From positions 1 to 31,867 of the IMG/VR virus record IMGVR_UViG_3300037070_004264: a DNA stretch of 31,867 nucleotides. One strand, written 5' to 3'. Under the pieces are notes generated by a model. The model worked only from the letters and a program-made list of their open reading frames with translations, did not search any database and had not been told where the DNA came from. Position 1 is the stretch's first letter. Every line of letters starts with the position of its first letter. This DNA is from a virus. Below, piece after piece: positions 5,422 to 31,867 of the stretch. Made by a program: the position numbers and the translations under genes.

Positions 5422-7635
5422 TTATTGACCTTGCAAAAATTTATTTTCAGCGTTATGCTGGTCATTAACCAACTTATTGCCAGATTTATTATCATCAATA
5501 GCCATTTGACCCTCTGTTTCAGCTCCAATCTTTTCTAACATCAGGTTTCTGGTTTCAGTTAATTGTTGTTCATGAATTTGCTGTTGTTGTTGTAACATTT
5601 GCTGTTGCATAGCCTGTTGATTTTGAGCATCCGCCGCTTGTTGTCTTATTGCGTTTTCCTGAACTCTTACATAAGCATCTTCAAATATTTGTTTGGCTTC
5701 TACAAAGGTTTCTGACATTTCAAATTTCAATACTTCCAAAGGAGTTATTTGCTGGGCGTTAATAGAAAACTCAAGCATTTGACGCATCTTTTGTTTGATC
5801 TCGTTATAACGTCCGCCGCTTTGTAAATACACGCCGTAATCCCTGAATCCAATCTCAGTAGTGATTTGCATATACTTAAACTTCTCACTACCTAAAATTT
5901 GCTCGCCCTCATCCTGTCTGTAAAACGCATAACTAATCTTAGAAGCCTCCGCAATACGCATTAACACTTGTTCGGTATAAAGCTCCATTGCGTAATAAAT
6001 AGGGGCTGTTTGCGTCCGCGAATTTTCTATAGCTTGCTGGGAATTCGTTACGGTAGCAGATGCCTGAATAGACCCCTCCCTTGTTTCGTTAATACCAGTA
6101 AGTCTATCCATTGTCATTAGAATCTGGTCTTTAAGCGCCAACAATTGTTGCACTGACTGACTTAACCCTAAATCGAATTCTTTAAACAACTCCATCCCTG
6201 ATAAATTACGATTAGCAAAGTTTCCTGAAGCTGAACTGTCAACATCAATAAAACTATCGTTAGCCATATCGTAGGCAATTTCCTTTAGCGTCCGCTTTTT
6301 CGGCAACGCTGCTCTGTCGTACATGATAACCTTACCCTTAAATTTAGCAAGTTCTTTCATTATCTGATACATTGTAATATCAAATAGATTATCAAAATTC
6401 TCTATTACTTTCTGTACTGAAATTCTTAGTCCATCAACAGTACCAACATTAATACCGATATAAGAACTATCAAGTATATAAGCTGGGTTATCGTGACGGC
6501 GCATTTGGAATGGTTTACGGCGCATATTTTTAAATATTACCCCTCCAATCATTGTCCCCTCCCACAAATCTTCTTCCCACTTAGTTTCGATTACATATTT
6601 ACCCTTTTCAACGTCCTTTTCAAAAGCTTCTTTATTAAGTTCATATTGTTTAGGACTTATCTCAATTGTCACCTTTTCGGTTTCGCTACTCCACTCTAAT
6701 TGATTGGTGGTTTTAGGCGCGATTTTATAGTAACGAGGCTTCATTGCCTTCCATTCAATATGAATAACGTCCACAAGTAATTGCTGTCCGTTCATAGTCC
6801 CCATCCACTGTCTTGTTGACCAGTTATCATACCAAGTGTTCTGCATATCCTGAAGCATATTTTTTTCAGCTTCAGTGAATTCATAACGATTCATTAATTG
6901 ATAAACTGGCATCCTTTGGCGACAACCCTTAATCGGACTCTTTTCTAAGAAATAATCATTCTCAATCTCCTGATAAATTGCATCGCGCGGATCAATTTTC
7001 AAATAATCAACATTACCCTTTTCGTCAATTTCAATCTTACCATAACAAGAACTTGTAACACAAACATCCAAGAATTGCTCGCCAAACTTTTGAACTAAAT
7101 TTAGCTTCTTAATCTTCTCATTTATAATAAGTTGCATTATATCTTCGCACTTATCTTTGGGGCTATATTTATCCCAAATCGGGTCTTCTTCAGAGCTTGG
7201 TATTTGAGCGCCCTCCATTACATCTACTCCCGCTTTATCTCGCAAATCTTCTAATGCTGGTTTAGCTAACATAGCGCCCGTCATAAAATCCATTTGACGC
7301 ATCTTATCGCTTATTGCCTCTATGTTAATAGTTTCAACAGTAGCTGCTAATGGTCTTTTGATCCACTCTCCGTGAAGTAAATTTAGTTTAGTTCTACCCG
7401 CGCGATAAGCTATGTATTTAGCTTTATTTTGTTTGCCGTAAGTTTTTTCCCACAGTCCGTTATGTGAGGCTGTTTTAACGCCATTATACGACTGATAAAG
7501 CGAAGTCATTTGCTGTCTTCGCCAATCGTATGTTGTAAGTAAATTTCGTGCGTAAAATAAAAACCCTTTACACCAATCAGGTGTTTTTTGTGTTTCGGGA
7601 ACTGAAATGTCGGGCAGACCAATATAATTACTCAT
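5422..7635 (-). CDS. Portal protein
   Basis: 737 aa, within the large size class of portals in podovirus-like and crAss-like phages of Bacteroidota. The N-terminal part includes a segment from about residue 80 with AGRTKLNLLHGEWIKRP. A central mixed region is followed by a helical crown, and a Gln-rich tail (QQAMQQQMLQQQQQ) spans about residues 680-700. It lies directly downstream of TerL (43 nt gap) and upstream of the scaffold-like gene, which is the standard order. The portal would form the dodecameric ring at the packaging vertex. Name and role rest on position, length and general look. Confidence 0.78.
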   Translation of the reverse strand: MSNYIGLPDISVPETQKTPDWCKGFLFYARNLLTTYDWRRQQMTSLYQSYNGVKTASHNGLWEKTYGKQNKAKYIAYRAGRTKLNLLHGEWIKRPLAATVETINIEAISDKMRQMDFMTGAMLAKPALEDLRDKAGVDVMEGAQIPSSEEDPIWDKYSPKDKCEDIMQLIINEKIKKLNLVQKFGEQFLDVCVTSSCYGKIEIDEKGNVDYLKIDPRDAIYQEIENDYFLEKSPIKGCRQRMPVYQLMNRYEFTEAEKNMLQDMQNTWYDNWSTRQWMGTMNGQQLLVDVIHIEWKAMKPRYYKIAPKTTNQLEWSSETEKVTIEISPKQYELNKEAFEKDVEKGKYVIETKWEEDLWEGTMIGGVIFKNMRRKPFQMRRHDNPAYILDSSYIGINVGTVDGLRISVQKVIENFDNLFDITMYQIMKELAKFKGKVIMYDRAALPKKRTLKEIAYDMANDSFIDVDSSASGNFANRNLSGMELFKEFDLGLSQSVQQLLALKDQILMTMDRLTGINETREGSIQASATVTNSQQAIENSRTQTAPIYYAMELYTEQVLMRIAEASKISYAFYRQDEGEQILGSEKFKYMQITTEIGFRDYGVYLQSGGRYNEIKQKMRQMLEFSINAQQITPLEVLKFEMSETFVEAKQIFEDAYVRVQENAIRQQAADAQNQQAMQQQMLQQQQQIHEQQLTETRNLMLEKIGAETEGQMAIDDNKSGNKLVNDQHNAENKFLQGQ

Positions 7636-7677: not shown

Positions 7678-9684
7678 CTACGTACCAAACAGGTCGCTAT
7701 CTTGCTCATCGTTTTTCAACTCCTGAGTTTCTACGTTATGATGGTAGTTTCCGTTTCTGTCAAAAGTGCCAGCGTGAAGGTTGAAAGCTTCATCAATATC
7801 AGAGTCGTCGTGATTAGATGGAGGCGCTTCTTCTGCCGCTGCTTGCATTAAAGCAATCCCATAAGCATCCGCCAAATCGTTATCCGACCCTTCTTCAACT
7901 TCATCAAAGTTCTGCAACTGATTAATTAATTCATCAAACCATATCTGGTCAACATTATAATAAATAGCGGTATCCATTAAACCTACCATTTTAGGTCGGC
8001 TTCCCTTTGTTAACAATATTCCGTGAACGTGAGTTTGGTCTGAATTAGAGTTTTCAAATGCTTTTGGACGTAAGGCTAAGTATTGTTGTCCGTAATTTTC
8101 TTCGAAATATTTTATCACATGAGGTTTTGCAGCATCTATCAAAGTAGCCCCTTGTAAATTATAATACACAGCTAATTTTAAACACATTTCATAAAACATT
8201 TCCTTACGCTTAGGTCGCGTACAAATTACCGCAACAGGCGCTATTTGCGGGGCGTTTACAATAGTATTAGCTCGTATCAATACGCACATAGCCCCTAATG
8301 ATTTAGAGGTCTTAGAAGTGTCCTGATCGTAGCTGTCGATTCCGCCTGAATATAGCCCCCAATATCCTTTTAATGGATGTCCGTTGTCAAGTATTAAAAA
8401 TGTAGTTTCGTCTTTATCTTCTTTTGTAGCTGGTTTTGCAATTATTTGTAAGGGAATTTTTCTAAGCTTTGTATTCTCATCCATCGCCCAATCCAATTTC
8501 CATCGGGAATATTTTTTTGGTGAATTAGAAACAATATATTCTTGGTCGTTTAGTTTTTCAGTGTCGAATTCATTAACCGCCGTTTTTCTAAACATATCCT
8601 TTTCTTCTAAAGGATTGTTCTGCTTATACTCTAAATACTTCTTTTTATTTCCGCTTTTAGCAAGCTTATCTGACTTCTTTAAAATAAATTCTTTCGCCGC
8701 TATTTCATCTTCAACTCCAATTAATTCAAACTTTTTGTGGGTCAATAATAAATTAGGAATCTGCTCAATAATTTCTCCGTTACGGGTAGCGCCTCCGTAA
8801 TTTGGCTTGTGCATTCGAGTGGCTGGCGCTAAAAATTTAATCATATTAAATTCATCAGCGTGTTCCCAAATATATTTATAATCTTTAGAGCCTTTATTTA
8901 CATTCCCCGCTGTACCGTAAAAAAGCATCGTGCCAATTTGTTTATCACCATCAGTTAATGTATCCTCAGTTGCATTATAAAACTCAATAAGATTAGGAAA
9001 TTCTCCGCACTCCTCTGCTACAACATCGTTTAAATATAATCCCTTAAATAAATTGGGGTTATTAAACATTGTTCTAACGTGAATTTTATTTTTTGTTCCT
9101 TTATCAATCCACTGATTGTTTTCGTCTTGTATTTCATAACCCGCTTGTACTTCATCGTTATTACTAATTAATGTTTTAGTTTGTAATTCAAGTGGCATTA
9201 AAGAATCTCCATTACTCCACTTAGTCATAAAATCTAAAGCATAATCTTTTAACCCTGCCGCTATACCAGCGTTATATCCATACGTAAATCTATAACCATA
9301 ATCAATTACAGCCTTATGCGTAAACTCTGAAATACCTTTTCGTCGCGCTTTACCAATAATTATATTTTTACCTTTAGATTTAGCATATTCATATAATAAG
9401 GAAATTTCGTGGTGCAAATCAACTATATCTGGTGTAATAATACCGTTAATAGTTGACATATAATTAAAGTTTAAATAATAATAAAACCTTCCTGTTATAT
9501 ATGTCCCGCCACTTTGGTAGCCGTTAAAAATCCTAAAAATTTGCTCCTCCCAGTACTTTTCAAAATCTGGCGTTCCTTTTACTTTAGGATTTAATCTTGA
9601 GTCTGCATATTTCGGAATTCCGTAACGTGCGACAGGATTTAAGCAACAGCCCTTCCCTTTATAATATGGCGGACGTAAAATCAT
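7678..9684 (-). CDS. terL: Terminase large subunit
   Basis: 668 aa. The ATPase half shows a deviant Walker A, GKARRKGIS, at residues 111-119. A Walker-B-like strand LNDVVAEE lies at about 219-225, and a coupling motif YGTAGN at about 256-261. The C-terminal RNase-H-like nuclease half shows GIDSYD at 448-453, a strand with Asp in TLIDAAKP at about 514-521, and a terminal acidic cluster DNDLADAYG at 601-609. This is the DNA-packaging motor, cutting concatemers and pumping DNA into proheads through the portal. Its ATG overlaps the stop of the upstream gene by 4 nt (ATGA), so translation is probably coupled. Confidence 0.9.
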   Translation of the reverse strand: MILRPPYYKGKGCCLNPVARYGIPKYADSRLNPKVKGTPDFEKYWEEQIFRIFNGYQSGGTYITGRFYYYLNFNYMSTINGIITPDIVDLHHEISLLYEYAKSKGKNIIIGKARRKGISEFTHKAVIDYGYRFTYGYNAGIAAGLKDYALDFMTKWSNGDSLMPLELQTKTLISNNDEVQAGYEIQDENNQWIDKGTKNKIHVRTMFNNPNLFKGLYLNDVVAEECGEFPNLIEFYNATEDTLTDGDKQIGTMLFYGTAGNVNKGSKDYKYIWEHADEFNMIKFLAPATRMHKPNYGGATRNGEIIEQIPNLLLTHKKFELIGVEDEIAAKEFILKKSDKLAKSGNKKKYLEYKQNNPLEEKDMFRKTAVNEFDTEKLNDQEYIVSNSPKKYSRWKLDWAMDENTKLRKIPLQIIAKPATKEDKDETTFLILDNGHPLKGYWGLYSGGIDSYDQDTSKTSKSLGAMCVLIRANTIVNAPQIAPVAVICTRPKRKEMFYEMCLKLAVYYNLQGATLIDAAKPHVIKYFEENYGQQYLALRPKAFENSNSDQTHVHGILLTKGSRPKMVGLMDTAIYYNVDQIWFDELINQLQNFDEVEEGSDNDLADAYGIALMQAAAEEAPPSNHDDSDIDEAFNLHAGTFDRNGNYHHNVETQELKNDEQDSDLFGT

Positions 9685-10211
9685 TTCTTGGCTATTACTT
9701 TTTCATAGTAAGACTTCCTATCCATTATCTCCTCAAGCCAGCTTCGCTCCATATTACCCTTGATCTTACCCTGTTTTCTTATCGATTCGGCAACTTCACT
9801 CTCTAATTCAATAATATCTTTTCTTAGTCCTGAAATAATTTCGCGGGCATTCTTAATGGCTGTTACAGAAGTTTCGTTATCCACAACTTCTAACATCTGC
9901 TCAATTTTCTTTTGATACCTAGCTACCTGTTCTACTTTTGGATTATACTGAAGTGATTTATACACCTCTATCGCGCGATTAACTTTAGGGGATGTAAGAA
10001 TTTTAGGATTATTGTCATTCCATACGTGAATCATAGCCTTTCGGATACGGTCTTCTTCAGGAAACTGTCTATAAATACTAAAATAGTCGTAAGCAAGAAT
10101 TACATAAAGCAATTCGTCTTCGTTAAGAACCCCTAATTCGGGGGAAAGTTTAACCACTTCTGGTCGTAAAATTACGTTTTGGCGGTCATCCGCGTAAATA
10201 AGTAAACTCAT
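9681..10211 (-). CDS. Terminase small subunit-like protein
   Basis: 176 aa. The N-terminal half is globular (MSLLIYADDRQNVILRPEVV). From about residue 85 the protein is strongly helical and coiled-coil-like (EQVARYQKKIEQMLEVV), ending basic. It overlaps terL by 4 nt and precedes it, the usual place for the small terminase, which binds the packaging site and oligomerises through helices. No clear N-terminal HTH is visible, so the call is mainly positional. A hairpin with a GAGAG loop precedes its start. Confidence 0.5.
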   Translation of the reverse strand: MSLLIYADDRQNVILRPEVVKLSPELGVLNEDELLYVILAYDYFSIYRQFPEEDRIRKAMIHVWNDNNPKILTSPKVNRAIEVYKSLQYNPKVEQVARYQKKIEQMLEVVDNETSVTAIKNAREIISGLRKDIIELESEVAESIRKQGKIKGNMERSWLEEIMDRKSYYEKVIAKK

Positions 10212-10223
10212 ATATCTGTGTTT

Positions 10224-10236
10224 CAGCCTCTCGCTG
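10224..10236 (-). promoter_or_regulatory. Leader hairpin CAGC-GAGAG-GCTG
   Basis: A 4-bp stem with GAGAG loop on the minus-strand mRNA ends 12 nt before the ATG at 10211. The loop equals that of the hairpin at 2477-2489, while the stem sequence differs. Confidence 0.45.
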
Positions 10237-10259
10237 TTGCAACAAATATAGGGAATTAT

Positions 10260-10655
10260 TTAATATCGCATATAGTAGTCCTTGCCTTTATGCTTAACAT
10301 GAGATATAAAAGAGGTGTCAAGCGTGTCAGAAATTATTGTAAAAGCTAATATAAGAATCTGGGCATCTAAGTATCCAATAGCTAAAGCTGTTATTTCTCC
10401 GCAAAAAATTGCGAGCGGAATTAACAATGCGTTAATGGCAATAAATCCAAGCAAAAATGCAAATATCAATAACCAACCTTTTTTTCTACATCGGAATCTA
10501 ACTATCTTGTATAAATAGTCGTTGTATTTTTTCTCCGCCCATGTTTTTTTTCTTTCTGGCGGCAATTTATAAATAACACTACATATAGATGGGCTATACA
10601 CCATTAACATATCTTGCTTTAAAAAAGCCGCCTTATATTCAAACTCATTTTCCAT
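10260..10655 (-). CDS. Membrane protein with an N-terminal copy of the capsid C-terminus
   Basis: 131 aa. Residues 12-30 (LKQDMLMVYSPSICSVIYK) match residues 477-495 of the capsid protein at 13 of 19 positions without gaps. A basic linker (PPERKKTWAEKKYNDYLYK) follows. Residues 59-112 then hold two or three hydrophobic segments (WLLIFAFLLGFIAINALLIP, then two more), so the protein should be in the membrane. The start ATG overlaps the stop of the nuclease gene (TAATG). Possible roles are tethering capsid assembly to the membrane, interference with capsids of another phage, or a leftover of capsid-gene duplication. None is proven. Confidence 0.65.
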   Translation of the reverse strand: MENEFEYKAAFLKQDMLMVYSPSICSVIYKLPPERKKTWAEKKYNDYLYKIVRFRCRKKGWLLIFAFLLGFIAINALLIPLAIFCGEITALAIGYLDAQILILAFTIISDTLDTSFISHVKHKGKDYYMRY

Positions 10656-14960: not shown

Positions 14961-14978
14961 AATTATCAGTTTTTCAAT

Positions 14979-15008
14979 TTATACGCAAAGATACATATAA
15001 AGTTACAA
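14979..15008 (-). promoter_or_regulatory. Early-type promoter (copy 1)
   Basis: On the minus strand TTGTAAC (15008-15002) and GTATAA (14984-14979) carry the motif seen upstream of several other clusters. A TATCTTTG box at 14993-14986 lies between them. The leader AAAACTGATAA follows at 14973-14963, just before the ATG at 14960. Confidence 0.55.
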
Positions 15009-15167
15009 TAATTAATAACTAAATAAAAAATTATTTATAGTTATGAGGGGGATACTATGTCACCCTTTACGCGATTACGATCCCAAATGCCCGTACCCCC
15101 GCCTCTTTTTCTGGCGCTAATAGGTAAAAAAGGAATCTCTTATTTTTTGTTTTAATACGGGGGTTTT

Positions 15168-15224
15168 CGCATCAGGTTTGTTGTATTTCGCGTGTCCTAT
15201 GCGTTTACATCAAATTTGTTGTGA
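15168..15224. promoter_or_regulatory. Operator pair, control region
   Basis: Two similar sites, CATCAGGTTTGTTGT (15170-15184) and CATCAAATTTGTTGT (15208-15222), lie 38 bp apart. The second is identical over 15 nt to a site at 26494-26508 near the two-HTH gene, where another pair lies 37 bp apart. The core CAAATTTG is a palindrome. Confidence 0.6.
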
Positions 15225-15361
15225 ACATAACCTGATGAGACAAGGGAAAGAATAGCCCCCGTGTGGTGTGATATAACAGTGCTTAGCGTTGCTAATGGGT
15301 GATTTAGCCCCTATTTATGCTAATATGCGACTGTATATCGGATAGAGTGTTACTAAATACG

Positions 15362-15369
15362 TATATTTG
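15362..15369 (+). promoter_or_regulatory. Promoter -7 box TATATTTG
   Basis: This matches TAnnTTTG and lies 22 nt before the ATG at 15392. No strong -33 TTG is found at 19-21 nt upstream. Confidence 0.4.
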
Positions 15370-15391
15370 GGCTATATTTAACACTATTTAT

Positions 15392-15592
15392 ATGCAATTA
15401 TACATAATAACTAAAGACGGAATACCCTTTCCTGATGCCTTTACAAGCAAGAAACAAGCCCTTATTAATGCAGGGATCAGCTACAACAACGTAACGCGTA
15501 ATGCCGATACGATTAACAGGAATGGCTCTAAATACTGTTTATATTCAATTAGAGCGCATAAGATTAAAGGCAGGGGAAAGGGCTTTAAATGA
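15392..15592 (+). CDS. Hypothetical small basic protein
   Basis: 66 aa from the ATG at 15392 (MQLYIITKDGIPFPDAF). An earlier in-frame ATG at 15317 would place the TATATTTG box inside the gene, so it is not used here. The protein is basic at the end (KIKGRGKGFK). First rightward gene after the operators, so early expression is likely. No family recognised. Confidence 0.55.
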   Translation: MQLYIITKDGIPFPDAFTSKKQALINAGISYNNVTRNADTINRNGSKYCLYSIRAHKIKGRGKGFK

Positions 15593-16005
15593 TTAATAAT
15601 GCGTGTAATGGCTTTATTTTGCGTTTTAACTGATTTTGTTTATTGTCGGGCGTAAAAATTTAAGTTAGGCGCTAATATTTGAATGATATAATATCTCCCC
15701 TCCCCTTTTTTGGTGGTTTTGGGTTTTATTGATCCCTTGTGATTTATCCCTGCTTTAGGTATATGTTTAACTTTGGTACTTTTGCTTTGTATTGTTTATC
15801 TGCTATCTATAAGATGTGAAAGGTTATTAGTGTTTGGTTCGTCCGCCGATTAAAATTTGTTTGGGTGGTGGTAATTGGTTTGTGATGGGGTTTAAATGCT
15901 CTCTGGCGTGTTAAGTGTGTGGTGTATAATGTATGGTAATAGTCGGGCGCGAAAATTGTATAATGAATAAAAGATTAATTCTAATCGCAATTTTATTTCA
16001 CTGTA

Positions 16006-16031
16006 TTGCAATAGGTTGCAATAGGTTGCAA
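16006..16031 (+). repeat. Tandem 10-bp repeat TTGCAATAGG
   Basis: Two perfect copies at 16006-16015 and 16016-16025 are followed by TTGCAA. The period equals one helical turn, as in short iterons. Confidence 0.65.
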
Positions 16032-16059
16032 GATGTTTAAATAAATTGTTATAATTTAC

Positions 16060-16090
16060 TGTAACCTTTAGGCGGGTAATACAGTATAAG
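16060..16090 (+). promoter_or_regulatory. Early-type promoter (copy 2)
   Basis: TGTAACCTTT and GTATAAG with 14 nt between the TTT and GTATAA. It lies about 60 nt before the first gene of the plus-strand small-gene cluster. Confidence 0.5.
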
Positions 16091-16152
16091 AAGTATATTA
16101 GCATTGCAACGATAAATACTAACACACACATTAACCACTAAAACCTACTCAA

Positions 16153-23361: not shown

Positions 23362-24155
<794 letters not shown>

Positions 24156-24168
<13 letters not shown>

Positions 24169-25719: not shown

Positions 25720-26475
25720 TTAAAAAACATAGCTATTCATTGTTTTTTTAAATACTCTGCCATCAAAAACAAATGTCCCGTAATTCAATTTCTTGATATG
25801 GTCAGGAATATCCTCAACCCTACAGCCCCTTTTACGTTCACCAGTTTTTTTTAATGATAGCCCAATGTCGTTTAAGGTCATTAGCGCCCTTTCGGCTGTT
25901 GATTTAGAAACGCCCATTATCTTTCCAATTGTGCTTAACGGAATTGCTACTGCGAAGGCTTCACAATTTGCTACTCTTAATTTCTTCCCGCTTTTATAGG
26001 CTGAATTATAAAGTTGCTGTTTTTCCTCTGTTGAGAGCTTGTCCCTTCTATCTTTGCTGAATTTCGTGTACAATTTACTTTGATAAAGGGGTTTAACTAA
26101 TAACACCCTTATTAAGCTCCGCAACTGCTTAGTGTTTTCCGCGAGTTTTAATGATATGGTTAAATATTTGGAATTTTTACGAATATCTTTTTTGCCGTTT
26201 TCAAGGGTAGTGTATTCATATTCTTTATTAATGCTTTTTAATTTTTTATGTTCCCCCCACGGCTTTATCCATCCGCGATCTAAACAGTCCGCCCACCACT
26301 TACGAACAGTTCTCTCGTCCATCCCACAAACGCGCGACATTGATTTAAAAGAAGTGGTATTGTAGATGGTGGAACTCGGGTAGTACTTCTTAAGCAATAG
26401 AAAGAAAGCAAAGGCGTTTTGCGCCCGCTTATCCCTTCCTATGTGTTCTTTTAAAAACTGCTTATGTATGTACAT
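25720..26475 (-). CDS. Regulator or replication initiator with two HTH domains
   Basis: 251 aa from ATG 26475, which has AAGGG 6 nt upstream. Upstream starts (TTG 26499, ATG 26496) lie in the operator and are not preferred. A first HTH at about residues 43-70 (SMSRVCGMDERTVRKWWADC) and a second at about 179-206 (STIGKIMGVSKSTAERALMT) are clear. The basic linker between them is long. The operator pair at 26494-26546 lies directly upstream, which suggests self-control and, through the same sites at 15.2 kb, control of the other early region. A replication-initiator role is an alternative. Confidence 0.7.
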   Translation of the reverse strand: MYIHKQFLKEHIGRDKRAQNAFAFFLLLKKYYPSSTIYNTTSFKSMSRVCGMDERTVRKWWADCLDRGWIKPWGEHKKLKSINKEYEYTTLENGKKDIRKNSKYLTISLKLAENTKQLRSLIRVLLVKPLYQSKLYTKFSKDRRDKLSTEEKQQLYNSAYKSGKKLRVANCEAFAVAIPLSTIGKIMGVSKSTAERALMTLNDIGLSLKKTGERKRGCRVEDIPDHIKKLNYGTFVFDGRVFKKTMNSYVF

Positions 26476-26493
26476 ATATCCCTTTATAATACG

Positions 26494-26546
26494 CATCAAA
26501 TTTGTTGTAAAATGTTTTTAATTTGAAATACAACAAATTTGTTTTG
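26494..26546. promoter_or_regulatory. Operator pair before the two-HTH gene
   Basis: CATCAAATTTGTTGT at 26494-26508 and TACAACAAATTTGTTTTG at 26529-26546, the latter with the perfect palindrome AACAAATTTGTT. The CAAATTTG centres are 37 bp apart, against 38 bp in the pair at 15.2 kb. Confidence 0.6.
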
Positions 26547-27103: not shown

Positions 27104-27343
27104 TTAACACTCACTACATTTACCTTTCTTCTCAGAACTTGTGCCTACAGACCCGCTATTGCGTAATTGCTGGCATTTAGCGGCGGCATCTGATTGAGTT
27201 TTTTCGCAGGACTTCAACACTTTATTGTTTCCGTCCATGACATAAACACAATAGGCTTCATCCGCCGAATTGCCCGATCCTTTTTTCTTACAGCTAACCC
27301 CTATCAAAGCAGTTAAAGCCATCATTGTTATTAGTTTTTTCAT
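27104..27343 (-). CDS. Small Cys-rich lipoprotein
   Basis: 79 aa. A signal peptide MKKLITMMALTALIGVSC ends with a lipobox-like Cys at residue 18, followed by KKKGSG. The mature part has five further Cys, including CSEC at the end, so disulfides are possible outside the cytoplasm. It should sit in a membrane facing the periplasm or the surface. Phage lipoproteins of this size can exclude other phages or act in lysis; neither is shown. Confidence 0.75.
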   Translation of the reverse strand: MKKLITMMALTALIGVSCKKKGSGNSADEAYCVYVMDGNNKVLKSCEKTQSDAAAKCQQLRNSGSVGTSSEKKGKCSEC

Positions 27344-27612: not shown

Positions 27613-27730
27613 TTTGGTCAATTTGATTAAATACTATATCTTTACAATCAAATCACTCTTTAGCTTTTATTCTTAGGGGCTTAAATAGGTTTTTTATCGG
27701 TTGGAAGCCTCATGTAAAAGTGGGGCTTCT
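27613..27730 (+). ncRNA. Possible short RNA: promoter and terminator-like hairpin
   Basis: TTTG (27613-27616), a 20-nt spacer and TATCTTTAC (27637-27645) fit the Bacteroidota promoter with one mismatch. About 60 nt later GAAGCCTC (27704-27711) pairs with GGGGCTTC (27722-27729) with one G-T pair, followed by TAAATTTT. A transcript of about 80-90 nt, or a leader with an attenuator, is inferred. Confidence 0.4.
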
Positions 27731-27811
27731 AAATTTTAAAAGGCTGATGTAAAATTAATATCCCTAACATTCAACATATTACAACATAATTACAATTAAA
27801 GTTATAATTAA

Positions 27812-27842
27812 TTGAAACTTTATATCTATCTTTACAGTATAA
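27812..27842 (+). promoter_or_regulatory. Early-type promoter (copy 5) before the structured RNA
   Basis: TTGAAACTTT (27812-27821), TATCTTTAC and GTATAAAT (from 27837) in the order of the early motif. It lies about 55 nt before the first helix of the RNA region. Confidence 0.5.
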
Positions 27843-28353
27843 ATAACAAAATAAGTTCATTCATTTATTGGAAATTAAAATTAAGGTATAGAGTATCAAT
27901 AGGTGTAAGCTAACGATGGGCTGAACACTCTTAGTGCACCAGAGGACAACCGCTGCGGTCTTGAAAAAAAGGCTAATGACAACCACCCTATTGAAAGACA
28001 GAAATGTTGGACAGCTATCTTAATTTATTGTTTGCGGTAATCCCCGCGTATACAGGGCTAAATAAATGGCATATCCTATTCACGAGTTGATTTGGGCTAT
28101 TAGGTTGACCGCCCCGCAAACAAATATTATTACAACCTCCGCGCACTTATTATTAATTTAAAAACCTTTAGGGGGTTTGAAGATTAAGCGGAGGGGTGTA
28201 TAATTCGGCGGATAACGTTCTTTATATTAATGGGTTTTTCATACCAGACAATTTATTACCGTCCGCCGAATTTTTTAAGAATGTCCGCCATCTCCTCATG
28301 CTGGATTAATACGGCAACGTGGGGTTACTGAGAGGAGAGTGTATTGGAAGGGG

Positions 28354-28401
28354 TTATAGCTGAAAAATACATTTTTTGTGGGGTTCGACTCCCTGCTATG
28401 T
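28354..28401 (+). ncRNA. tRNA-like element 1 (acceptor plus T arm)
   Basis: A T-arm-like GGGG-TTCGACT-CCCT (28380-28394) is followed at once by GCTATG, which pairs with TATAGC at 28355-28360 (one G-T pair), as an acceptor stem stacked on a T arm. Only about 19 nt replace the D and anticodon arms, so this is not a normal tRNA. An alternative pairing, 28340-28345 with 28366-28371, competes. Confidence 0.4.
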
Positions 28402-28412
28402 GGCGCAAAAAT

Positions 28413-28549
28413 GAAGGAATGAGGGACTAAATAACGTTTGGGTCGGCTCAGGGCGCAACTTCTTAATTGATAAAATAGGCGAGTATGAAAAAAGACTTTA
28501 AAGATGCCGTTCTCTTTAGGATGCCACAGGTTCGACTCCTGTTTCCTTT
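28413..28549 (+). ncRNA. tRNA-like element 2 with 106-nt internal part
   Basis: The T arm ACAGG-TTCGACT-CCTGT (28526-28542) is perfect. The next seven bases TTCCTTT pair with GAAGGAA at 28413-28419 (one G-T pair), giving a full acceptor stem. Between them are 106 nt with a 6-bp stem and 8-nt loop (TAAAGA/TCTTTA, 28499-28518). The layout recalls the closing domain of tmRNA or a tRNA with an insertion. No CCA is encoded. Confidence 0.4.
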
Positions 28550-28660
28550 ACAAAACAAGTTCCAGTTGTCCAGATGAAAGATTCTGTTCTGCGTGTAATA
28601 ACACGCCCGATACTTTAAAGCGGGAAAAAACCGATAATACAAACATTTAAAACTAAGAAA

Positions 28661-28951
28661 ATGAAAACAGTAATCACAGGAATTTTTGTAGTGTTAAGCT
28701 ACATTTGCGCCATAGTGTTTAAAATATGGGCTTTAATATCATTTATACTTTATTTAGTAAAAGACCGCCCATTTGATTGGTTTAGCCTATGGCTTTGCAT
28801 TGGCGGATGGGGAGGGGTTATTGTGTTTGGGCTTCTGTCTATTATATTTAAGCACGTGGAGGCAAAGACAATCCTTAAAAGCAGAACATCTTCTTTTCAA
28901 AAGAAGCTTGAAAAAATGGCTGAAGAAAGAAAACAAAAAACACACAATTAA
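28661..28951 (+). CDS. Two-span membrane protein
   Basis: 96 aa. Two hydrophobic segments (VVLSYICAIVFKIWALISFI at about 10-29, and GGWGGVIVFGLLSIIF at about 48-63) and a basic cytoplasmic-type tail (KKLEKMAEERKQK). An AAAACCGATAA leader lies 24 nt upstream. A holin-like role is possible from layout, but there is no lysis gene beside it. Confidence 0.65.
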   Translation: MKTVITGIFVVLSYICAIVFKIWALISFILYLVKDRPFDWFSLWLCIGGWGGVIVFGLLSIIFKHVEAKTILKSRTSSFQKKLEKMAEERKQKTHN

Positions 28952-30548: not shown

Positions 30549-31867
30549 ATGAAAGAGTTCAATAAGAAAATTCAGGCAAAATTTGCCCTGATGCAAAAAA
30601 CAGGTAAGCTATTTAGAGTAGCGTTAACGGGTGACCAAATATGGGAATTGTATCTCAATTCATTCCCAGCCGAACAAAACCCTATTTTCCGCGACCCAAA
30701 CAGTACAACTAAAAACTGTAACCACTGTAAGAACTTTATCCGCCGTTATGGAAATATTGTAGCTGTGGATGAAAACTATGCCATTACAACGATGTTTGAT
30801 GTTGACGGTGGCGCTGAGTATCAAAATACAGTAGAGGCGCTTACAGCGGCTTTAAAGGGAGCTAAAATCGGGGAGGTATTTTTTGAAACATTCAATGAGC
30901 TTAATTCCCTTCCATACGAATCTTGCACTAAAACAAGTAAAGCCTTCCAATTAGGCGTAGCTAGTAATCCTAAACGCTATACAAAAGAAGAAGCGGAAAA
31001 ATTCGGCGTGGTTAAACCTAACGAAGTTCGCACATTTAATCACTTACATTTGTTTGTGGACGCTGAATTTGTGGACAAATCTGGTAACTCCGTTGAATCT
31101 ATAATGGGTAATTTCCGTGACGCTAAGAATGTGTTTCAAAAGGCTATGGAAACTATTTCTATTGATACACTACAATTAGTGAAGGATTTAATCAATCAGG
31201 GGTCATTACTGGACGGCACAACACATCTTTATAAAATTGAGCAAATCATCCCGCTTAAAAAACAATACGATGAATTGTCAGCTAAACAACGCGATAATTA
31301 TTGTTGGATAGCTTCTTACAAACTACCGTTCGCTAAGTTTAAGAACGAACTTATTGGAACACTTTGTACAGAACTATCTGAAGGCAAAGAATTGAACGAT
31401 GCTTGTCAGGCATGGAACAAACGTGTTGACCCCGCAAATTACATGAAGGCTACCGCTCCTATCACAAAGAAGCAGATAGAAGAAGCTAAGAAGTTTGTAC
31501 AAGAAAATGGATATGAAGAATCTTTTAACCGCCGTTTTGCTCATATTGATGACATTAAAGCTTCAGAAATATTACACGTTAATGTTGGTAAAGGCGATAT
31601 TAAATCAGTATCAATATTTGATAACATTAAATCGACATCAACCCGCCATAAACGCGCCGAATTTGATGGTGTAGAAGAAGTGACAATTGATAAGTTTATG
31701 AAGGATATACTACCGTCATGTACATCAGTAGAGGCTTTCTTTGCTAATAATCATCAAGGCAGCCTTGTATCACTCACTACATCTTGCGCTAATGGTTCAT
31801 CAAAACCAATGTTCAAATGGGCTAACAACTACTCATGGACATTCAATGGTAATTTGGCTGGAAATCT
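30549..31867 (+). CDS. Large phage protein, N-terminal 439 codons
   Basis: It starts MKEFNKKIQAKFALMQKTGK behind an AAAACCGATAA leader and runs out of the window. Early features are LTGDQIWELYLNSFP, then CNHCKNFIRRYGNIVAV at about residues 57-73, a Cys pair near a basic helix. Similar proteins of unknown function occur in several phage groups (from memory). The C-terminal part, missing here, may hold further domains. Not a known polymerase or helicase by motif. Confidence 0.6.
   Translation, partial: MKEFNKKIQAKFALMQKTGKLFRVALTGDQIWELYLNSFPAEQNPIFRDPNSTTKNCNHCKNFIRRYGNIVAVDENYAITTMFDVDGGAEYQNTVEALTAALKGAKIGEVFFETFNELNSLPYESCTKTSKAFQLGVASNPKRYTKEEAEKFGVVKPNEVRTFNHLHLFVDAEFVDKSGNSVESIMGNFRDAKNVFQKAMETISIDTLQLVKDLINQGSLLDGTTHLYKIEQIIPLKKQYDELSAKQRDNYCWIASYKLPFAKFKNELIGTLCTELSEGKELNDACQAWNKRVDPANYMKATAPITKKQIEEAKKFVQENGYEESFNRRFAHIDDIKASEILHVNVGKGDIKSVSIFDNIKSTSTRHKRAEFDGVEEVTIDKFMKDILPSCTSVEAFFANNHQGSLVSLTTSCANGSSKPMFKWANNYSWTFNGNLAGN

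Follow-up and report, generated by a model that had tools for sequence, protein, structure and literature searches.

The question raised by this locus is whether the DNA between two facing phage operons specifies an RNA and, if so, of what kind. The window, meaning the whole stretch of DNA analysed, is a 31.9-kb virus record taken whole as one contig. By its sequence, the phage is a relative of the crAss-like phages of Bacteroidota. The portal gene (5422-7635, minus strand) matches PHROG family 6547 and the large terminase gene (7678-9684, minus strand) matches PHROG family 6681. For both, the nearest named phages, 20-26% identical, belong to the crAss-like and Flavobacterium phages. The region of interest is flanked by a minus-strand operon, containing a replication-initiation-like gene (25720-26499) and a lipoprotein-like ORF (27104-27343), and by a plus-strand operon that opens at 28661. 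The first gene downstream (28661-28951, plus strand) encodes a 96-aa probable membrane protein with a homologue in a related phage, G006. The region has no fitting ORF, as the original prediction had noted. Using translation table 11 the longest is 59 aa and antisense; when TAG and TGA are read through, the longest inside the region are 71 aa (antisense) and 66 aa.

Other parts of the window deserve a brief description. The late minus-strand and middle plus-strand operons are separated by a stretch of about 1.2 kb (positions 14961-16152) with a weak coding signal. In relatives the gap is similarly sized and patchily conserved (77-94% identity to G005, and 75% over 652 nt between the relatives G011 and G014). 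The ORF at 30549-31865 runs off the contig and belongs to PHROG 1735, whose function is unassigned. Several otherwise unrelated huge phages encode proteins 67-79% identical to it, and in many of them the gene precedes tRNA genes by about 1 kb. Because it is common to unrelated huge phages, this gene is of no use for synteny. Finally, 23362-24168 encodes a 268-aa protein, the first half of which is a nearly pure (GNGNGYGNGDGN) Gly-Asn/Tyr/Asp repeat.

On the plus strand of the region, five domains lie back to back, each closed by 7-11 Watson-Crick pairs. Domain 1 (27896-27994) is a four-way junction, in which TCAATAGG pairs with CCTATTGA around three hairpins. Domain 2 (28028-28123) is closed by TTGTTTGCGG and CCGCAAACAA and has three inner hairpins. 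In domain 3 (28131-28200), CCTCCGC pairs with GCGGAGG (28136/28194), inside an outer TACA/TGTA pairing and around a long inner hairpin. Domain 4 (28202-28272) is closed by AATTCGGCGGA and TCCGCCGAATT, and domain 5 (28291-28338) by TCTCCTC and GAGGAGA. The original prediction had listed these five closing helices, and all are present where it placed them. Each is also found in the unconstrained minimum free energy (MFE) structure of 27880-28345, with pair probabilities of 0.57-1.0 (mostly above 0.8). The same structure contains a helix absent from that prediction (28009-28286, GGACA/TGTCC plus TCTTAA/TTAAGA, plus strand), which encloses domains 2, 3, and 4.

Such an arrangement is not expected by chance. 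We scored chains of sequential, non-overlapping domains, with spans of 35-115 and at least seven Watson-Crick pairs closing each. The window region gave five domains and a chain score of 110, compared with means of 1.6 domains and 27.8 for 500 dinucleotide shuffles. Neither value was matched by any shuffle (0/500). By the same measure, the region is the first-ranked 450-nt stretch in the window and the related genomes G003, G005, and G006, some 200 kb together. Note that the signal vanishes once G-U pairs are permitted in closing helices. Hence, the excess consists of long, pure Watson-Crick helices. In global folding energy the advantage over shuffles is only modest, with z-scores of -1.0 (27890-28625), -1.4 (27890-28345), and -2.3 (28005-28290). 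Folded singly, domain 3 (z -3.79) and domain 4 (z -3.04) are better than shuffles; domains 1 (z -1.06), 2, and 5 are not below them. Over 27890-28625 the plus-strand fold is 24 kcal/mol more stable than that of the minus strand, and the plus strand is the more foldable in every relative too. The base composition also changes at the boundaries. Briefly, G+C is 0.18 immediately upstream and 0.46 at the start of domain 1 (27896), stays at 0.33-0.49 within the region, and falls past 28620.

An early-type promoter had been predicted just upstream. Part of this claim stands: a -7-like box of the Bacteroidota type (TAnnTTTG-like), TATCTTTAC, can be read at 27827-27835 (plus strand), about 60 nt before domain 1. 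From this sequence, the RNA would be expected to start near 27842-27847. The box has no convincing -33 partner; the TTG at 27812-27814 is just 12 nt away. Positions 27809-27866 are similar (E 0.1) to a segment that precedes tRNA genes of LR756500.1, a 462-kb phage. Before 28661, we found no intrinsic terminator besides the hairpin of a T-arm (see below). Separately, there is a canonical TTTG-N20-TATCTTTAC promoter at 27613-27645, followed some 60 nt later by the hairpin GAAGCC...GGGGCTTC with TAAATTTT. This unit (27613-27735) possibly makes a short RNA, of about 90 nt by its sequence, ahead of the large one. A similar promoter-terminator unit lies near 8610-8716 of G006.

The 3' end of the region resembles tRNA. 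The sequence GGTTCGACTCC occurs twice (28382 and 28529), with a full 5-pair T-stem at each. By that test these are the sole T-arms window-wide, and two T-arms arose in 0/20,000 shuffles of the region. For the first (TGGGG TTCGACT CCCTG, 28379-28395, plus strand), an acceptor partner was sought within 700 nt and none was found. The second T-arm (28526-28542) belongs to an element at 28413-28549 (plus strand), where GAAGGAA (28413-28419) and TTCCTTT (28543-28549) form a 7-bp acceptor. The total span is 137 nt, and a T-arm with such an acceptor was seen in 0.01% of shuffles. The D arm and anticodon arm of this element are not recognisable. Neither ARAGORN nor Rfam detects a complete tRNA in the region; the best Rfam tRNA score is 17.6 bits, against a gathering threshold of 29, and ARAGORN at a relaxed threshold returns one poor, intron-bearing candidate. 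Thus, of the two tRNA-like elements originally predicted, the T-arms are real and the elements are not tRNA genes. We infer that the second T-arm and its acceptor are a tRNA-like processing element. A GC hairpin, GCGTGT-AATA-ACACGC, is present at 28591-28606 (plus strand), as had been predicted, without a T run after it.

Unusual tRNA genes were encountered in other phages. LR756500.1 has two (L060:1626-1758 and 2018-2157), with perfect 7-bp acceptors and spans of 133 and 140 nt. Their inserts of about 60 nt lie near or in the D-arm, share GAACTC(T)AAGTYATTACAG toward the insert 3' end, and may represent introns of an unusual class among the tRNAs of huge phages. In a further tRNA-like gene (L048:12401-12517), the acceptor and T-arm are perfect, a D-arm is present, and the anticodon/variable region is enlarged.

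Does the region encode a known RNA? The original prediction had likened it to GOLLD and ROOL. The Rfam covariance search of the window RNA gave no match to either, at the gathering threshold or at E up to 10, so the likeness does not extend to membership and is an analogy only. Both RNAs are phage-borne, occur near tRNAs, and have no assigned function as yet (PMC12286853). Like the window RNA, GOLLD exceeds 0.5 kb and has many domains, and it is associated with tRNAs or has a tRNA within (PMC12286853). However, the universally conserved 3' region of GOLLD is absent here. ROOL is of similar length, about 0.6-0.7 kb, and is found near tRNA islands (PMC12286853), where the window RNA has a tRNA-like end. 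The pseudoknotted fold of ROOL is not apparent in the window RNA, although our folding was done without pseudoknots. YrlA and other bacterial Y RNAs are also noncoding with a tRNA-like part, but the window RNA has no Rfam match of this kind. The Y-RNA reading was prompted by a TROVE (Ro60-type) protein encoded among crAss001 early genes (PMC8375218); TROVE (PF05731) was found neither in the window, which is a fragment, nor in 21 other phage records. For group I and group II introns, too, Rfam gave no match at either of these cut-offs (gathering, or E of 10). A P1-like pairing near 28424-28444 was considered as part of a group I intron and rejected, there being no core. Since no GOLLD, ROOL, or other Rfam class matched, the suggestion that this may be a new class stands, and the window RNA has a good claim to represent a new class of large phage RNA.

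Relatives offer an independent view of the locus. By blastn, the RNA region has no sequence homologue among phages, plasmids, and related contigs. IMG/VR queries with the window replication gene and membrane protein returned nothing, or G006 alone, and the G006 helicase returned only itself. G006, found via its portal protein, is an 80-kb genome with a terminase about 50% identical to that of the window. There, the plus operon is faced by a homologue of the replication gene together with a lipoprotein-like gene, and 9868-10310 is noncoding. This segment lies 1.6 kb inside the plus operon and opens with TTTG-N19-TACCTTTAC. In its fold, a three-hairpin domain 1 is followed by a large domain containing three sub-domains, and then by a final hairpin. 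The strict domain plan of the window and G006 RNAs was seen in 0/600 shuffles of the former and 2/600 of the latter, with criteria that were fixed after both folds were known and a window plan that varies with the flanks co-folded. Tree-edit distance between the window and G006 structures, which uses no such plan criteria, was a second measure, with 300 shuffles in each direction. The p values were 0.003 and 0.000 for full MFE structures and 0.02 and 0.01 for coarse structures. Both place and domain plan match in this proposed class, which has two members only, without sequence similarity.

In G011, G014, and G016, relatives that were brought in by terminase alignment and cover this locus, the corresponding early divergent region contains an RNA of another kind, about 0.22-0.44 kb long, heading the early operon. 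We refer to this family as R1 (L147:9763-10220, plus strand; L148:14892-14440, minus strand; L149:4655-4890, plus strand). The G011 RNA is 74-81% identical to those of G014 and G016. The R1 core has 11 compensated base pairs (0/500 shuffles), from three sequences only, two of them nearly alike. In the core, 97.6% of cells are paired, compared with 31-44% when slid. Conserved inner motifs are ATTGACGGTTGAGGCT, GCGTAGAATAGCATTAAT, and TATCGTAAGAAACA. No R1 RNA has an Rfam match above cut-off, and the R1 sequence pattern has three matches in bacterial genomes, none of which (0/3) is a family member. A covariance model of the core recovers its three members only. It finds nothing in the whole window and recognises neither the window RNA nor that of G006. 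With filters off and the window region alone, its best score is 14.2 bits at 27668-27772, outside the RNA, whereas members score 143-159. Similarly, a hand alignment of domain 1 from the window and G006 to the G011/G014 core was not above shuffles and was rejected by the model. The G011 and G014 RNAs fold unlike that of the window and, by tree-edit distance, the G014 RNA is not similar to the window fold. We conclude that an RNA occupies a conserved position, and that at least two kinds of RNA are found there.

Taking helix statistics, G+C, strand bias, position, and the RNAs of relatives together, the central claim of the original prediction, a large structured noncoding RNA in the early region, has good support; its GOLLD/ROOL label does not, nor would its tRNA-like elements if taken as tRNA genes. 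The window phage very probably makes a folded, non-protein RNA of about 0.7 kb heading its early operon. The best explanation, at somewhat less than even probability, is a large, early, untranslated structured RNA that is freed at its tRNA-like end and acts in trans. The early transcript would open with the untranslated RNA, at about 27845-28620; here the folding is computed and the transcription presumed. In order, the predicted fold runs through domain 1, with its four-way junction, a 278-nt domain with three sub-domains, domain 5, and the tRNA-like elements. Because no terminator precedes the early genes, one transcript probably covers both the RNA and those genes. Host RNase P and RNase Z would then be likely to cut at the tRNA-like element, given its T-arm and 7-bp acceptor, releasing the RNA from the mRNA. 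The freed RNA may have a stable structural or scaffolding role in trans early in infection, as proposed, by analogy only, for GOLLD and ROOL. Note that G006 has no T-arms, so release in this way cannot apply to all of these RNAs.

The main rival is a cis-acting early leader, in which the RNA stays on the early mRNA and either modifies RNA polymerase or controls the early operon. The models are the boxA/nut site and the HK022 put leader; place would be conserved and sequence would not. We regard this as possible, though somewhat doubtful. An exact boxA, GTTCTTTAAAA, lies between promoter and RNA in G006, G011, G014, and G016, and directly precedes the RNA in the latter three. The 16-mer GTTCTTTAAAAACATT is identical in G006 and G014. 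GTTCTTTAAAA fits GYTCTTTAANA, the consensus for NusB/NusE-dependent antitermination, which was derived for gammaproteobacteria (PMC5725501). In G011 and G014 the RNA directly adjoins the early genes, and the lack of a terminator after the window RNA also suits a leader. Long untranslated RNAs would be expected to need boxA antitermination. However, GYTCTTTAANA has no match in the window, and GTTCATTCATTTATT, considered there as boxA-like, was unsupported by the boxA test. Since the window has no match, boxA backs the class of loci and not the window RNA directly. Known antitermination leaders occupy a similar place, just past an early promoter, but at 0.7 kb the window RNA far exceeds them and has a different fold. 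Its T-arms, moreover, suggest processing.

It is improbable that the region holds the remains of a tRNA or tmRNA gene, perhaps with introns or inserts, beside meaningless intergenic hairpins. The two T-arms, the candidate from the relaxed ARAGORN run, and the spans of the huge-phage tRNA genes with inserts (133 and 140 nt, versus 137 here) are in keeping with such remains. So is the tmRNA in the early region of a related phage, Flavobacterium phage FpV4; tmRNAs are present in FpV4 and two huge phages. Like tmRNA (RF00023), the window RNA has a tRNA-like acceptor and T-arm at its 3' end. Conversely, no tag ORF was found in it, and no model match, to E 10, was obtained for tmRNA or introns, though the same Rfam library detects the FpV4 tmRNA at 58.2 bits. 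Nor was an acceptor partner found at tmRNA distance, 250-450 nt away. Above all, domains 1-5 are the strongest signal and have no tRNA parts. The FpV4 tmRNA itself (NC_041872.1 81947-82361, minus strand; L064:31947-32361) is unannotated, is missed by ARAGORN, and sits inside a 2.3-kb stretch without annotated genes.

A DNA-level structure, such as a replication origin or recombination hairpins, is very unlikely: the site does lie between divergent operons and near the replication-initiation-like gene, but the plus strand folds better in the window and all relatives, the G006 RNA is 1.6 kb within an operon, the RNA of other relatives covaries, and T-arms are present.

We return to the large, early RNA released to act in trans. 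Put most broadly, and tentatively, the locus may represent a class of structured RNAs that is so far undescribed, large (0.36-0.7 kb), and fast-evolving, and that opens an early operon in phages related to the crAss-like group. The window and G006 would share a domain plan without sequence similarity, and the window RNA would be freed by its tRNA-like end and be trans-acting. To our knowledge, few known RNAs are as elaborate as GOLLD and ROOL. Flavobacterium psychrophilum phages, distant relatives of the window group, are cultivable, and the question is therefore testable. If our proposal is true, positionally conserved, fast-diverging RNAs heading an early operon in these phages would link large phage RNAs to a defined stage of infection and to a possible antitermination element.
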